Assembly: GCF_024256385.1 (NCBI RefSeq)
Contig: NZ_JAMLFW010000002.1
Coordinates: forward strand, 1,240,001-1,304,000
DNA from: Anatilimnocola floriformis
GTDB lineage: Bacteria; Planctomycetota; Planctomycetia; Pirellulales; Pirellulaceae
Direction: 5' to 3'
DNA: 64,000 nt
A model generated the notes under the pieces. That model saw only the letters and a program-made list of their open reading frames with translations. It was not told where the DNA came from and searched no databases. Position 1 is the stretch's first letter. Each line of letters opens with the position of its first letter. Below are positions 9,288-46,205 of this stretch, in pieces. A program made the translations under genes and the position numbers.

Positions 9288-10397
9288 TTGGTCACCGTCT
9301 TGATACGATAGCATCCCGCCCTGCGATCGATCACAATACATTGTGCCAATTCGCTCCCACGAGAGGACGCGTGCTCTCACGGAGTGAAAGCCGACAGTCT
9401 GGAACTCTTCTCATGACCACAAAACTCGGCTCGATGTTCGCCGTCGCCTGGCTCTTTTTGGCGGTCTTGCTTGCGCCTGCCAGCGCTCAGCCGGCGTCCG
9501 AAGCGGCAGCCCGTCTGCGCGCACTCGGCATCGAACCGACGACCGAGGGTCTGCAGCAATATCTTCGCGAGTTCACTGGCGGCGAACTGCAAAAGACCGT
9601 TGCCAAATTGATCGCAGATCTGGGAGCCGAAGAATTTGCGACGCGTGAAAAAGCCTCCAAAGCCCTCGCCGATGTGGTGCCGCTGCCGATCGCCGCGCTG
9701 ACAAAAGCCACTAAAGGAGACGACGCCGAACGAGCCTGGCGGGCCGACCGACTGCTGAAGCTCGTCCAGCCGCAAAGCGACAAAACCCTCTCCGCCGCGC
9801 TCGAGGTCATCACGCAGCAAAAGCTCCTCGTCGGCGCGCCCTTGCTAATCAAGGCTTATCATCAACTCGAAACGGCTGAGTCGCGCGGCGAAGTGCTCGC
9901 CGCGCTGCTGGCGACCGTGCAAGAAAGTGACCGCGCTGTTGTCGTCGATCTCACCAAGCATGCCGACAAGTCCAAGCAAGATCTTGGCCGGGTGCTGTTG
10001 GCCCGTCTCGACAAAAAGGACCTGCCCCTCGACTTGGCCCGCAGCTTCGACGCCGTGAAGGTCACGCCCGGCGGTGTCGCTGGCGGCGGGCCCAATTTAA
10101 TCTGCGGCTGGGAGTTCAAAACCAAAGCCGACATCACCGTCACGCATCTCGCCCTGTACGACCGCAAGCCCTACGGCCTCGCCATGCCGCACGAAGTGGC
10201 CATCTACGACATCGAAGAAAACCAAAAGCCGCTCGTCCTCGAAACCATTCCCGACGGCGAAAAAGCCCCGCTCGCCGGCGAGTTCCGCCTCGTCCCCGTG
10301 CCGCGCACCCGCCTCCGCGCCGACCGCCGTTATGCCATCGTCGCCCACTATGCCGACCCCTCCGACACTACCGTCAGCATGGTCAACCCCGGCGGCC

Positions 10398-11432
10398 TAG
10401 TGCGTTTCCATCTTAGGTGTAGCGGTAGCCGCAGTGCTTGAAGTAGTTGCGGCACTCCTGCTCGGTGAATTCATCGAGCAGTGTGCCGCATAGCTCCCAA
10501 AGTTTTTCGACGGTGCGTCGCGCGCCATCGCGCAGTAGCTTTTTGAACTTCGCGAACGCCAGTTCGATCGGGTTCAAGTCGGGTGAGTACGGCGGCAAGT
10601 AACGCACCTCGGCACCTACGGCTTCAATCGCTTCGCGGACGCCGGCCACTTTGTGGCTGGAGAGATTATCCATCACGACAATGTCGCCAGGCCGCAACAC
10701 CGGCGATAGTTCTTTCCGCACCCAAGAAAGAAACAGCTCGCCGTTAATGGCTCCTTCGACTGTCAGCGGCGCGATAAATCCTTCGGCTCGCATCGCACCG
10801 AGAAACGTCGTTGTTTCCCAACGGCCGCTGGGAACTTTTTCGATCAGTCGCGTACCAATGAGCGAACGCCCATAGGTCCGCGTCATACAAGTTTTGGCCC
10901 ACGTTTCATCGATGAAAACTGCTTTTTCGGGAGGAATGGTTTGCTGCTCAGCGCGCCACTTCTCGCGCTTCTCGACAACATCCGGACGATCATGCTCGCT
11001 CGCAATCAGCGTCTTTTTTTTCGCGTGAGCTCGAGCGCGCGACACGCATTGCAGATCGTCATCAAACAAACTTCTTCGCCGCGCTCGGCCTTGAGTTCCG
11101 CCTGCAGCTCGCGCAAATAAATGTCCGGCTGAGCCGTGACTTTCGCCACCAACCAATCGCCCCACGCCTTCCACTCGGGCTGCCGCGGCGCTGCCGTCTT
11201 CGGGCCAAGCTGATTCGATTCGCGACGCTGCTGCTTCACGCGTCGCACCCACGACTCCGACACGCCGTAGCGTACGGCGACGATGCGTGTGCCCTCGCCA
11301 GCATCGCAAGCGGCAAGAATCTCGGTGCGAATTTCCACGGCAATCGGTTCCATCAGACCACACCTCCTTGAGATGATCCCTAAGTTACCGACCTTGCCCA
11401 CCTGGCGCTAGATGGGTCATGGAAACGCACTA
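10398..11432. mobile_element. IS630-family insertion sequence, complete, with TA duplication
   Basis: The element body is 10400-11430 (1031 bp), flanked by TA on both sides (10398-10399 and 11431-11432), the target of the IS630/Tc1-mariner superfamily. The terminal inverted repeats read GTGCGTTTCCAT at the left and its exact complement ATGGAAACGCAC at the right. It carries one transposase in two overlapping frames on the minus strand. Ends, target duplication and open frames are intact, so it may be active. Confidence 0.95.
10413..11353 (-). CDS. IS630-family transposase, made by -1 frameshifting
   Basis: Frame A runs from ATG 11353 (AAGGAGGTG nearby) to TGA 11008-11006 and encodes the N-terminal helix-turn-helix part ([20 protein letters not shown]). 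Frame B continues to TAA at 10415-10413. It holds the DDE catalytic core: [21 protein letters not shown] and [19 protein letters not shown]. The overlap contains eight A residues on the coding strand (11021-11014), phased in frame A as the classic A-AAA-AAA slippery heptamer. A -1 slip there joins ELTRKK to KTLIASEHD. Either ribosomal frameshifting or transcriptional slippage could make the fusion. The fused product of about 312 residues is normal for the family. Confidence 0.9.
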
Positions 11433-43312: not shown

Positions 43313-43328
43313 CAACGACTCAACCGCC

Positions 43329-43534
43329 GGGTGGCACGGCGTGTACTCACCCGTGTCTTCTTTTAGATCTTCTGCGGTAAGTCTCCACCACGAAGCCCGG
43401 CGAAACCCCAATAAATTTCGCCACCCACGGCAGCACGCCCTTAACTCAGAACGGCCCGATCTCCACCGCCGACTGCCATTGATCCTCAACCGAAAATGGC
43501 CAACGAACACTGGTGAGTACACGCCGTGCCACCC
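43329..43534. repeat. MITE-like element with perfect 23-bp terminal inverted repeats
   Basis: GGGTGGCACGGCGTGTACTC starts at 43329 and its perfect complement ends at 43534; the 23-bp arms match exactly and a few more bases match after one mismatch. The 206-bp unit contains no gene. No clear target duplication is seen. It lies just beside the restriction-like island. Confidence 0.75.
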
Positions 43535-43564
43535 TGCAGAATCTCCGCGGCTGATACCCTTGGT

Positions 43565-44116
43565 CTAGTGTAAGTCGATTGACCGTGGAATCTCGGACGT
43601 AATTCGCAAAGCACCTTCATTCGCGGGCACCAAAAAAGATTCGCCGTCGTCGCGAATCGCAAGCACGGCGACGGGATCGCCAGCATTCGGATGCACAAAC
43701 ACGCTCCAGCCATGTGGTCGGCGTTCGACTAGAAGATCGGGTTTCGAAACGTCCGACTTGTCGCGAGCCCCCAAGATCAAGCGAAGACCGCTTGAGCAAC
43801 CAATAAGTATTGGCGTTTTCGAATATGTGTACTCGCCTGCTTCGGTATTCGGGCTGATTGTCAAATTTCGTTCCCTAACGTAGGTCGGCACGAACACCAC
43901 GAGCTCAGCGCCAACATCGTCGCGTGACGATGAGTTAGCTTTTTCACGTTCGTCGAGAAAGCGTTGAAGTAAGTCGCGAACTTCGCGTTGCGACAGCGGT
44001 GACTCTCGCGAGAGCTGGCTTTCATCCATGATCCGCTGATCTTCATCGTAGAGCCCCTCCTCCCAAAAATCTAAAGCCTCGACAATGGTGGAGAGCTCTC
44101 GTTCGGTGAATTTCAC
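43565..44116 (-). CDS. Unknown protein under controller-type operators, 183 aa
   Basis: A soluble protein of unknown family. The first half is helical and acidic (FTERELSTIVEALDFWEEGLYDEDQ ... QREVRDLLQRFLDERE). The second half is beta-rich (VVFVPTYVRERNLTISPN, LLVERRPHGWSVFVHPNAGDPVAVLAIRDDG). I chose the GTG at 44116 because AGGAG lies seven bases upstream; that AGGAG is itself part of operator A. Its promoter (TTGCTC-N17-TACGAT, minus strand 44168-44140) is almost a copy of the promoter of the gene at 45135. It is transcribed away from the XRE regulator. It has no methyltransferase or nuclease motif that I can see. Confidence 0.7.
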   Translation of the reverse strand: MKFTERELSTIVEALDFWEEGLYDEDQRIMDESQLSRESPLSQREVRDLLQRFLDEREKANSSSRDDVGAELVVFVPTYVRERNLTISPNTEAGEYTYSKTPILIGCSSGLRLILGARDKSDVSKPDLLVERRPHGWSVFVHPNAGDPVAVLAIRDDGESFLVPANEGALRITSEIPRSIDLH

Positions 44117-44119
44117 ATC

Positions 44120-44142
44120 GATGCTCCTGTTTTGGGAGCATC
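44120..44142. promoter_or_regulatory. Operator A, controller-protein site
   Basis: Perfect 8-bp inverted repeat GATGCTCC-N7-GGAGCATC. It overlaps the -10 region and transcription start of the unknown gene at 43565-44116 and the -35 element of the XRE regulator. Its GGAG half also serves as the ribosome-binding site of the leftward gene. Confidence 0.75.
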
Positions 44143-44160
44143 GTAGCACGCTCCGATAAT
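44132..44160 (+). promoter_or_regulatory. Promoter of the XRE regulator, probably leaderless
   Basis: TTGGGA (44132-44137), 17-bp spacer, GATAAT (44155-44160). A start seven bases on falls at 44167-44168, the regulator's ATG itself. This predicts a leaderless mRNA, as described for several restriction-modification C-protein genes. Confidence 0.6.
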
Positions 44161-44166
44161 CGGAGC
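44150..44166. promoter_or_regulatory. Operator B, controller-protein site
   Basis: Perfect 17-bp palindrome GCTCCGATAATCGGAGC, centred 27 bp from operator A. It covers the -10 element of the regulator's promoter and the -35/spacer of the leftward promoter, so bound protein could repress the former and affect the latter. Confidence 0.75.
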
Positions 44167-44167
44167 A

Positions 44168-44431
44168 ATGCAAAAGTCGACTCATACGAACGATTATCGA
44201 AAACTGCGGGCCGCACTCGTTGAGGTGCGCACAGCGGCAGGGCTTACTCAGCGAGAACTAGCGACCATTTTGCGAGTCCAACCCAGTTGGGTCGCAAAAG
44301 TCGAAACGGGAGAGAGGCGAATCGATGTGCTGGAGTTTTGTTGGTACGTGAGGGCATGTAACGGAGATCCTGCAGCCACGATAGCAGAGTTCTCAGCGAC
44401 GAAAGGCGCGAAAGGAAATCGCGCGTCATGA
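44168..44431 (+). CDS. XRE-family controller-type transcription factor
   Basis: An 87-residue protein that is almost entirely a lambda-repressor-like helix-turn-helix domain: LRAALVEVRTAAGLTQRELATILRVQPSWVAKVETGERRIDVLEFCWYVRAC. Size and position (overlapping the nuclease gene by four bases) are those of restriction-modification C proteins, which bind paired palindromes, repress themselves and delay nuclease expression. Four candidate operators flank its own promoter and the promoter at 45135. GGAG lies only two bases before the ATG, too close for a normal ribosome-binding site, in line with leaderless translation. Confidence 0.88.
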   Translation: MQKSTHTNDYRKLRAALVEVRTAAGLTQRELATILRVQPSWVAKVETGERRIDVLEFCWYVRACNGDPAATIAEFSATKGAKGNRAS

Positions 44432-45042
44432 CTCTGCCGCTCGACGATTTCCACCGAAAGTCGCTGCTCGAAGTGTTTCGCATGCCGCTCGCGCAGTCGA
44501 TGCTTGGCCGCAAGTCCAGCATCACTAACGCCTTCGTGAATGCAATAATTCCCATCGTGAATCCCTCGGCCGAAGAGATTCACGAGGCGCTCACCATTCT
44601 GGAAATGACGCCGGAAACAACTCGATGCGCATACTGTGGTGACAAACAAACCGAGTGGGATCATCTGCGACCGCTCGTCGACAAAATGAGGCCCACGGGA
44701 TTCATTTCTGAGATTGCCAACCTTGTTCCGTCGTGCTCCAAGTGCAACCAGAGCAAAGGAAACAAGTATTGGAAAACATGGATGTGTGGTAGTTCTAAAC
44801 TCTCACCGCGCACCAGAGCAATTGCTGATGTCGATTCGCGGATTGCTAGGCTCGAAGCATATGAACGTTGGCGAGCACCGACCAAGGTCGACTTCCAATC
44901 GTTGCTCGGAGATGAAGCCTGGCAGCACTACTGGAAGATGTGGGAAAATTTGAACGGCGCGCTGGCGGAGGCGCAAGCAGTCGCCAATGAAATGCGAGAT
45001 GCCATTCGCGATCGCGTCAAGAGTTCGAAGAACGAGCGCTAG
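44428..45042 (+). CDS. HNH endonuclease, probable restriction enzyme
   Basis: A 204-residue nuclease. The HNH/zinc core is clear: C67-x2-C70 (RCAYCGDK), the catalytic D78-H79 in TEWDHLRPL, N98 in ANLVPSCSKCN, and C103-x2-C106 followed by NQSKGNKYW. The N-terminal 60 residues and the helical C-terminal 80 residues are outside the core and may bind DNA. It is translationally coupled to the XRE regulator (ATGA overlap). By context it should be the restriction enzyme of a type II system. No methyltransferase is found in the window, so either it is harmless, acts on modified or foreign DNA, or its partner is elsewhere. Confidence 0.85.
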   Translation: MTLPLDDFHRKSLLEVFRMPLAQSMLGRKSSITNAFVNAIIPIVNPSAEEIHEALTILEMTPETTRCAYCGDKQTEWDHLRPLVDKMRPTGFISEIANLVPSCSKCNQSKGNKYWKTWMCGSSKLSPRTRAIADVDSRIARLEAYERWRAPTKVDFQSLLGDEAWQHYWKMWENLNGALAEAQAVANEMRDAIRDRVKSSKNER

Positions 45043-45081
45043 CTCGGACCAATTGCGAATCGCTTCGACAGTGGTTGCGAT

Positions 45082-45110
45082 TTGCTCCGAATATCGAAGC
45101 GCGTTACCAT
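45082..45110 (+). promoter_or_regulatory. Promoter of the DUF4928-like gene
   Basis: TTGCTC (45082-45087), 17-bp spacer, TACCAT (45105-45110). It matches, nearly base for base over some 50 bp, the leftward promoter between 44168 and 44120. It lies in the 92-bp gap after the HNH gene. Confidence 0.6.
45084..45100. promoter_or_regulatory. Operator D, controller-protein site, one mismatch
   Basis: GCTCCGAATATCGAAGC, a 17-bp near-palindrome equivalent to operator B (GAAGC for GGAGC). It overlaps the -35 element of the 45135 promoter. Its centre is 27 bp from that of operator C. Confidence 0.65.
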
Positions 45111-45130
45111 GCTCCCCAATCAGGAGCATG
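45108..45130. promoter_or_regulatory. Operator C, controller-protein site
   Basis: Perfect 8-bp inverted repeat CATGCTCC-N7-GGAGCATG, equivalent to operator A. It overlaps the -10 element and transcription start, and its GGAG is the ribosome-binding site for the ATG at 45135. Confidence 0.75.
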
Positions 45131-45134
45131 CTTA

Positions 45135-45701
45135 ATGTCGCCGAAGCGAGAACGCCCTATTTCTGCGGATCCCATTCTGTTGCCAGCTCTCGCATGCTCG
45201 CACTTAGGCGCCTTCGTGACGCTAATTCTCGGTTCCACCGAAACGCTCTCGGCGGGTGGACGTGTTGCACGAGCACTTGTAGATGCCAAACTGCGCCTTC
45301 GCTTTCCCAGCCACATGGTCACGAGGTGCGAAAAGCGAGGTTCACAGACGTTTACGGAATTCACGGTCGGAAGCCTGCGCGTAATCGTCGCGATACCTTT
45401 GTCTGACGAGGCCTTCAACTCCGCTGGAGCCTTTGCAAAAAATGAGCGACAAGTATTTTTCGTCGTCCCAGCAGATGACGTAGAGTATGCACACCACCGA
45501 ATCAAGAAAATGCGATGTCGGCTTGAGTGGGTCCGGGTGAAATCGGTCGATGACTTTGTCACAGACTACATGCACGGTGTTGCAACGGATTTGAGTTTGA
45601 CTCCTGCACAATTCTGCCTCAAATTTATCGCGGAGTACAATCGGCGAATTGCCGCTGATGGTGATCCTTCGCTGCAAGTACTCCTGCCGGCAATTGAGTA
45701 G
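45135..45701 (+). CDS. DUF4928-like restriction-associated protein
   Basis: A 188-residue protein. The core (FTEFTVGSLRVIVAIPLSDEAF, then AKNERQVFFVVPADDVEYAHHR, then VKSVDDFVTDYMHGVATD) and the end (FIAEYNRRIAADGDPSLQV) resemble, from memory, the C-terminal part of DUF4928 proteins, which occur beside m5C methyltransferases and nucleases. The match is weak, and the protein is shorter than the family. It is driven by its own operator-flanked promoter. The gene is followed after three bases by the start of the vsr relic, which also points to a former m5C restriction-modification system. Alternative: an unrecognised restriction subunit. Confidence 0.6.
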   Translation: MSPKRERPISADPILLPALACSHLGAFVTLILGSTETLSAGGRVARALVDAKLRLRFPSHMVTRCEKRGSQTFTEFTVGSLRVIVAIPLSDEAFNSAGAFAKNERQVFFVVPADDVEYAHHRIKKMRCRLEWVRVKSVDDFVTDYMHGVATDLSLTPAQFCLKFIAEYNRRIAADGDPSLQVLLPAIE

Positions 45702-45704
45702 CAA

Positions 45705-46121
45705 ATGGCCGACACATATCGCCCTCTGAGCGCTCGCGAATTATGGCAGCGGTGAAGTCGACCGACACTTCGCCGGAGTTGGTGGTGCGGCGGTTGATTC
45801 ATGCGATGGGATATCGCTACCGGTTGCATGTAAAGTCGTTGCCAGGGACACCAGATTTGGTGCTCCGCCGACTGGGCAAGGTTGTCATTGTGAACGGCTG
45901 CTTTTGGCATGGCCATTCATGCGGTAGGTGCCGCATACCCGCAACCAATCGCGACTACTGGGTGGCCAAGATCGAGCGCAATTAAGCCCGCGACCGGCGA
46001 ACACGTCGCGCGCTCAATCGGCAGGGCTGGCGAGTTATGACCGTTTGGGAATGTCAGACCGTCGTGCGCCGCCGTGAGGCGCTGCGGCGGAGGTTGGCGA
46101 CGTTTTTGAGCTCGAGTTAGC
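45705..46121 (+). pseudogene. vsr: Very short patch repair endonuclease (vsr), decayed
   Basis: The Vsr family nicks T:G mismatches that arise by deamination of 5-methylcytosine. ATG 45705 starts MADTYRP in one frame; the family continuation PSERSRIMAAVKSTDTSPELVVRRL is one base out of frame, implying a 1-bp loss near 45722. From 45743 the frame reads through RLHVKSLPGTPDLVLRRL, VVIVNGCFWHGHSCGRC and YWVAKIERN, then hits TAA at 45983-45985. After it, the same frame continues with ARDRRTRRALNRQGWRVMTV and WECQTVVRRREAL to a stop at 46119-46121. The WEC segment is needed for the fold. Two inactivating lesions make this a pseudogene. Confidence 0.85.
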
Positions 46122-46172
46122 GCGGAGAGCGCAACTAGTTCGACGTCGTGAGAGAGATTTCACACTGCATTA

Positions 46173-46205
46173 GCCCCTCTCCCCGGAGTACCGGGGCGAG
46201 GGAGT
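46173..46205. repeat. CCCTCTCCCCGG palindromic repeat, copy 3
   Basis: CCCCTCTCCCCGGAGTACCG then GGGCGAGGGAG, identical in its hairpin to copy 1. It lies between the vsr relic and the 3' end of typA and could terminate either transcript. Confidence 0.65.

Follow-up and report, generated by a model that had tools for sequence, protein, structure and literature searches.

A candidate mobile nuclease cassette with controller-protein-like operators and no linked methyltransferase in Planctomycetota

The window analysed here, a 64,000-nucleotide (nt) stretch of the Anatilimnocola floriformis genome (contig NZ_JAMLFW010000002.1, positions 1,240,001–1,304,000), contains a compact cassette in which a gene for a small XRE-family regulator precedes and overlaps a gene for an HNH nuclease, with a divergent gene on its left and a further co-directional gene on its right. 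The regulator, of 87 amino acids (aa; 44168–44431, + strand), matches HTH_31 (1.1e-8) and resembles the controller (C) proteins of restriction-modification (R-M) systems, and the gene for the 204-aa HNH endonuclease (44428–45042, + strand; HNH, 1e-7) overlaps its stop codon in an ATGA junction. Residues C67/C70, H79, N98, C103/C106 and N107 of the HNH protein are invariant in an alignment of 17 sequences. The divergent gene (43565–44116, − strand, GTG start) encodes a 183-aa protein, here called U183, for which no Pfam or NCBIfam family was matched. The gene downstream (45135–45701, + strand) encodes a 188-aa protein that matches PF16280 (DUF4928) at 7.1e-6 and our own profile at 3.1e-13; it covers only positions 156–303 of the 306-position PF16280 profile and is thus homologous to the C-terminal half of DUF4928, not to its full length, for which reason we call it DUF4928-C. 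All four are intact open reading frames (ORFs), and their identities are those given in the initial annotation of this DNA. Neither the HNH protein of the window nor any partner protein that we scanned carries a Pfam domain for reading modified bases. Beyond DUF4928-C lies a vsr pseudogene (45743–46120, + strand) with an in-frame stop and, by eye, an apparent frameshift near its start (~45706).

Both promoter regions of the cassette carry a pair of palindromes of the form GCTCC-N7-GGAGC. We confirmed four such sites: operator 1 (44123–44139), which is distal to the XRE gene, operator 2 (44150–44166), which stops one base short of the XRE ATG, and operator 4 (45111–45127) are exact, and operator 3 (45084–45100) has a single mismatch. 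The coordinates first assigned to operators 1 and 4 (44120–44142 and 45108–45130) are those of longer palindromes with 8-base-pair (bp) half-sites that surround the two 17-bp sites, and the centre-to-centre spacing is 27 bp in both pairs, as originally described. What stands out is the operator pair; single sites are not rare. The exact motif occurs at 15 places in the 8.93-Mb genome, three of them in the cassette, as against 40 for a control pattern made by reading the motif backwards, and the window holds nine sites with at most one mismatch where 3.87 are expected, a count that 3 of 100 shuffles reach. Pairs with at most 3 mismatches out of 20 number four in the whole genome, namely the two of the cassette (0 and 1 mismatches) and two others with 3 each; the control pattern gives eight pairs at this threshold, for which individual mismatch numbers are not shown, and no pair at that threshold appears in 100 dinucleotide shuffles of the window. 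Frequency of the motif elsewhere in the genome, which the initial annotation would have counted against its proposal, is therefore seen for single sites and not for pairs.

The predicted promoters of the cassette are interleaved with these sites. A consensus scan of positions 43500–46200 returned a single sigma-70-like promoter, TTGGGA-N17-GATAAT (44132–44160, + strand), before the XRE gene; shuffles average 1.2 such promoters, so the scan alone is no evidence, and a similar sequence is present at this place in relatives. This element overlaps operators 1 and 2, with operator 2 lying over the predicted −10. Because the −10 ends 7 nt upstream of the ATG, the XRE transcript is probably leaderless, and the overlap of promoter and operators would make XRE-HNH, as predicted, an autoregulated leaderless operon. 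The promoters predicted for the leftward U183 gene (44140–44168, − strand; TTGCTC at 44168–44163, N17, TACGAT at 44145–44140) and for the DUF4928-C gene (45082–45110, + strand; TTGCTC-N17-TACCAT) have the same layout, and we could confirm that they share TTGCTC-N17-TAC-x-AT; each would place its −35 in one operator and its predicted start in the other. The further suggestion that the GGAG half-site doubles as a ribosome-binding site is possible for these two genes but would not extend to the XRE gene, given its probably leaderless transcript. At all three promoters a protein bound at the operators would cover promoter elements, and repression would therefore be the simplest reading throughout.

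Profile comparisons place the regulator near known controller proteins. A profile of the XRE family (A2) matches the solved structures of C.AhdI (1.1e-8) and C.BclI (5.2e-8), with 3eus, 3f6w and 2ef8, whose names say no more than XRE-like or putative factor, ranking above them, and the window protein matches the PADLOC Control_protein model at 1.6e-6. Together with the retention of its sites at 12 loci, described below, these matches bear out the assignment of the XRE protein as a controller-type regulator, which, as first proposed, would act on three transcripts. The same profile matches 44 of 392 genomes of the phylum at 1e-9, three of which are cassette genomes. We fetched 40 stretches around other matches to the profile, a part of all matches, and read 41 XRE genes there. 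Palindrome pairs scoring at least 8 of 10 in the matching layout precede the start codon of 9 of the 41 genes, vs 0.6% of shuffles, often with different half-sites, and the scores of 20 genes do not exceed 5; the layout therefore seems to be shared by some members of a broader XRE family. These nine loci (L152, L155, L157, L158, L160, L162, L165, L169 and L175; L and G handles denote loci and genomes) have no HNH gene, and at L158 the half-sites are nearly those of the window, with a stop within the XRE frame. More distant XRE relatives likewise occur without an HNH gene, and the neighbourhoods of 12 of them, inspected by eye, were varied, with no constant partner seen.

To place the nuclease, we scanned a collection of 84,980 species genomes for the HNH protein, which gave 167 relatives, and kept 80 loci for analysis, calling an XRE neighbour by phmmer at E 1e-3. 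An XRE gene of the window family lies directly before the HNH gene at 11 of the 80 loci, all Planctomycetota by title, and at none of the other 69, so that the XRE-HNH form of the cassette has so far been found only in this phylum. With the window these 11 loci, which include L038 (in genome G266) and L050 (in G303), make a set of 12 cassettes. Their HNH proteins form one clade of an 82-row tree (ultrafast bootstrap 100; SH-like approximate likelihood ratio test, SH-aLRT, 91), from which we omitted L064, whose sequence is split between two frames. In a separate search of the 392 phylum genomes, 11 match the HNH protein, four near full length (the window genome, G266, G303 and G294) and seven over the HNH domain only. 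All 12 cassettes have operator 1 at a distance of 45 bp upstream of the XRE ATG, with no mismatch among its 10 half-site bases in seven (window, L034, L036, L041, L050, L053 and L087), 1 in L038, 2 in L035 and 3 in L037, L039 and L040. Over both palindromes, the mismatches out of 20 are 0 in the window and L036, 1 in L087, 2 in L034 and L038, 3 in L035 and L050, 4 in L037 and L040, 5 in L039, 6 in L041 and more than 7 in L053, and no pair with up to 4 mismatches was found in 1.15 Mb around HNH genes that lack an XRE neighbour.

The solitary members of the HNH family (L042–L113 minus L050, L053 and L087) are mostly ~190 aa long, 46–56% identical to the window protein and spread over Pseudomonadota, Bacillota, Actinomycetota, Bacteroidota and others, and no gene was recognised as their constant neighbour. 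In other phyla, the HNH core can, by eye, carry an extra stretch, ahead of it in L088 and L113 and a similar one behind it in L090, to which Pfam gives no convincing name; such joined stretches fit a nuclease core that changes partners. A distant HNH relative (L028, G294:C160, 9893–11429) is divergent to a Dcm-type methyltransferase gene on a contig that looks phage-derived by eye.

What varies among the cassettes is the gene in the divergent slot, which shares the operator pair with XRE-HNH. A relative of U183 occupies it in 3 of 12 (window, L035 and L050) and DUF4928-C in 5 of 12 (L038, L053, L034, L037 and L040), so that one or the other fills it in 8 of 12. The Pfam matches to DUF4928 are direct in L038 (9.3e-10) and L053 (7.8e-14); the joint profile of L034, L037 and L040 is DUF4928-C by hhalign (95.6% probability, 1.1e-8), and taken singly L037 and L040 are indistinguishable from shuffles and L034 is marginal (E 0.01, best shuffle 0.16). 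In the remaining slots, L087 has an 89-aa N-terminal fragment of a 5-methylcytosine (m5C) methyltransferase (2.8e-16), L041 an ORF without assignment and L036 no divergent gene, and the contig of L039 starts at the operator. DUF4928-C also follows the cassette downstream in the window and L087, bringing its total to 7 of 12. The expectation that the 183-aa gene always travels with the regulator is thus not borne out, and the gene set first proposed is right in part, U183 and DUF4928-C occurring together in the window. Among the 392 phylum genomes the U183 gene has a match in only one besides the window genome, G303; no U183 homologue was found in plasmids or viral contigs, and no homologue of the DUF4928-C protein in plasmids. 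Treating either the L041 ORF or U183 itself as DUF4928-like was rejected, the former because it could not be separated from shuffles and the latter at 1.1% probability. For DUF4928-C, VIA-align gave EcoT38I (Z 6.7 over 88 residues), the BspD6I small subunit (Z 5.1) and MspJI (Z 4.2), and we claim no fold because unrelated folds score at the same level as these restriction enzymes. By eye, the DUF4928-C protein of L087 (10873–11592) begins much like a planctomycete DUF1501 protein, as though the two had been fused.

No intact m5C methyltransferase gene was found in the available flanks of the 12 cassettes, some of which are short, and a crude motif scan for other methyltransferase types up to 5 kb away, where the contig allowed, gave only matches judged by eye to be due to chance. 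At the scale of whole genomes (METHYLTRANSFERASE), PF00145 has no match in five of the 12 cassette genomes (G266, G303 and the genomes of L036, L037 and L053), occurs only as a near-cassette fragment in two (L034, 1.8 kb from the HNH gene, and L087, adjacent to it) and matches elsewhere in the other five (window, L035, L039, L040 and L041). G266 and G303 are 98 and 96% complete, and completeness is not given for most of the other cassette genomes. Among 25 searched genomes with a solitary HNH gene, which do not include that of L058, 13 have no PF00145 match and 12 have one. Considered with the 69 of 80 HNH loci that lack an XRE neighbour, this indicates that the HNH protein can do without a regulator encoded beside it and without an m5C methylase. 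A vsr gene lies at the window locus in its broken form, and as open frames beside the cassettes of L034, L037, L053 and L087, the last four in genomes with no PF00145 match or a fragment only.

In L033 and on two plasmids (L201 and L202), an m5C methyltransferase gene is followed by one for full-length DUF4928, and SGI1-related elements are reported to carry an ATPase, Vsr, DUF4928 and an m5C methyltransferase together (PMC9035990). In view of these full modules, the cassettes seem to lie in, or to have been assembled from, remnants of m5C methyltransferase-DUF4928-Vsr modules. Mobility is suggested by L036, where an XRE-HNH unit without a partner is flanked by 210-bp direct repeats (9370–9579 and 11012–11221; 92% identical). 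The repeat is the end of a neighbouring gene, which is the pattern of an insertion with a long target duplication, a kind of insertion linked to the mobility of R-M systems. In the window itself we looked for a long target duplication and found none, and an empty-site comparison by way of typA showed, by eye, no shared neighbourhood in the nine other same-family genomes that returned the locus out of 12 searched. The guanine-plus-cytosine (GC) content is 52–56% over the cassette vs 60–62% on the right flank. A miniature inverted-repeat transposable element (MITE)-like element with 31-bp terminal inverted repeats (94%) adjoins the left edge of the cassette (43326–43537), 27 bp from the end of the U183 gene; searching the genome with this element gave 17 rows, of which three are the element itself and its own arms and the others partial copies.

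For the regulator the controller idea holds for the most part, but the system, to the extent that this can be tested, is no standard R-M system. On balance we lean, without great confidence, towards a mobile restriction-type nuclease cassette with C-protein-like regulation and a swappable partner, sitting in the remnants of an m5C R-M/Vsr module with no linked methyltransferase. In such a cassette, XRE dimers would bind two 17-bp palindromes 27 bp apart, and the bound sites would overlap the −35 and −10 of the leaderless XRE-HNH promoter as well as the divergent promoter, holding the HNH nuclease and its divergent partner at a low set level; in the window, the second operator pair would also govern the DUF4928-C gene. 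The HNH protein would be the cutting subunit, with DUF4928-C or U183 probably giving DNA recognition, and the cassette would most likely attack foreign DNA by a mark or feature absent from the host, unless a methyltransferase in trans protects the host. It may therefore be a restriction-type defence that works without a methylase. A more far-reaching form, which we put forward tentatively and regard as somewhat doubtful as a whole, is that of a methyltransferase-free cassette in which a C-like regulator with a new operator class controls two genes from one divergent promoter, that of an HNH nuclease and that of a recognition partner open to exchange (DUF4928-C or U183). What was left of an m5C R-M system would thereby have become a nuclease that stands alone and limits itself, has no need of host methylation and moves by insertion with a long target duplication.

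Several observations weigh against this interpretation. With regard to control, the second palindrome is not kept in two of the 12 cassettes (L041 and L053), and the second operator pair, before the DUF4928-C gene, was found in the window and at none of the other cassettes. C proteins are known to activate at low dose, and since the centre of operator 1 lies ~37 bp upstream of the XRE start and the site reaches the −35, such activation may occur here. With regard to the partners, the idea that DUF4928-C or U183 probably supplies recognition is drawn from position and partner swapping only; the AlphaFold2 model of DUF4928-C is weak (mean predicted local distance difference test score, pLDDT, 58; no Foldseek match at E <= 0.001) and that of U183 unusable (mean pLDDT 47). 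The window genome has five PF00145 rows, the closest ~170 kb away, and PF01555 (N6/N4) is present in all eight genomes searched for it, so that protection in trans by another type of methylase may apply. A planctomycete HNH relative 41% identical to the window protein, in G294, lies next to a methyltransferase and lacks an XRE gene. The broken vsr indicates that part of the window locus is decaying, and with 55–64% GC on the left flank the compositional contrast is clear on the right only.

These points bear differently on the alternatives. An R-M system split across the genome, in which an unlinked methyltransferase of the m5C, N4-methylcytosine (m4C) or N6-methyladenine (m6A) type protects the target of the HNH nuclease, would account for the PF00145 matches of the window genome and of the four other cassette genomes that have them away from the cassette, and for the PF01555 matches in all eight genomes searched; it is a serious alternative that we nonetheless hold to be unlikely, as five of the 12 cassette genomes, whose completeness is mostly not given, have no PF00145 match and two more only the near-cassette fragment, and no other operator pair below 3 mismatches is present in the window genome. 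We would also not expect the locus to be a decaying Type II R-M system of the ordinary controller-regulated kind, with its methyltransferase lost or truncated and XRE-HNH a passenger relic, although the broken vsr, the methyltransferase fragments in L087 and L034 and the reduction of DUF4928 to a half all speak for it. The XRE, HNH, DUF4928-C and U183 ORFs are intact in the window, operators and HNH active-site residues are retained across diverged loci, and the HNH protein is retained without XRE at most of its loci, other phyla included; moreover, a restriction enzyme that outlives its methylase should, if active, kill the host. Improbable, in our view, is a toxin-antitoxin pair in which XRE is antitoxin and autorepressor and HNH a DNase toxin: the XRE gene comes first, the genes overlap, the sites look autoregulatory and there is a weak NCBIfam match to a HipB-like antitoxin subfamily (1.9e-6; 27.7 bits vs a cut-off of 71.65), but the nuclease is not always accompanied by its would-be antitoxin, the 69 HNH loci without an XRE neighbour of the window family indicating that it is tolerated alone, and the swapping of the third gene is left unexplained. 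That the palindromes are RNA hairpins over ribosome-binding sites instead of DNA operators is very improbable despite the good folding of both long ones (−11.5 and −15.8 kcal/mol, z −3.4 and −3.8), as any inverted repeat folds as RNA anyway, the predicted −10 boxes place transcript starts inside or downstream of the palindromes, and operator 2 sits upstream of the XRE start, which is predicted to be leaderless.

C proteins are best known for delaying the restriction enzyme until the methylase has protected the host. If the locus is indeed a mobile nuclease cassette under C-protein-like control, a conserved circuit of this type without a linked methylase would mean that such control can also serve to hold a nuclease at a low level instead of delaying it, and would illustrate the rebuilding of R-M parts into other defences. 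It would also provide a testable class of regulator and operator with about twenty natural variants, made up of the 12 cassettes and the nine other XRE loci with the matching layout.

A narrow literature search returned nothing on controller-protein R-M systems of planctomycetes, nor on most of this gene set combined. Sorokin et al., cited in PMC3115060, reportedly sorted C-protein motifs into classes, among which GCTCC-N7-GGAGC may be found. The cassette shares with R-M systems of the C.AhdI, C.PvuII and C.Esp1396I class a small XRE regulator that is co-directional with an overlapping nuclease gene, tandem palindromes upstream of the regulator gene and a probable leaderless C transcript, here predicted. 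According to published work, a close C-R junction is the rule in C-controlled systems and the C.PvuII transcript is leaderless (PMC2997769), leaderlessness is common among C transcripts (PMC4824078), and C-protein boxes are mostly GACT-tat-AGTC (PMC3115060). The sites here, in contrast, are GCTCC-N7-GGAGC, 27 bp apart centre to centre and over the predicted −35 and −10, and the main difference from C-regulated R-M systems is that the flanks of the 12 cassettes yielded no linked intact methyltransferase. The C.Csp231I/C.EcoO109I class is similar in having two separated pentamer palindromes and a leaderless-looking transcript, the latter being a prediction in our case; the relevant reports give CTAAG-N5-CTTAG with ~18 bp between palindromes (PMC3115060) and a transcript that appears leaderless (PMC4824078). 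Our cassette differs in its half-site, in its N7 rather than N5 spacing, in having 10 bp between palindromes, in the divergent partner that shares the operator pair and in the lack of a linked methyltransferase. PcaRCII, a solitary HNH enzyme active in defence through restriction of methylated DNA, is likewise described without a neighbouring methyltransferase, and no XRE operator cassette like the one here figures in the part of that description available to us (PMC8989522). Also similar in gene content are the m5C methyltransferase-DUF4928 (-Vsr) modules, of which the window locus keeps the C-terminal half of DUF4928 and a vsr, whereas the N-terminal half and the methyltransferase are gone and the XRE-HNH pair has been added.

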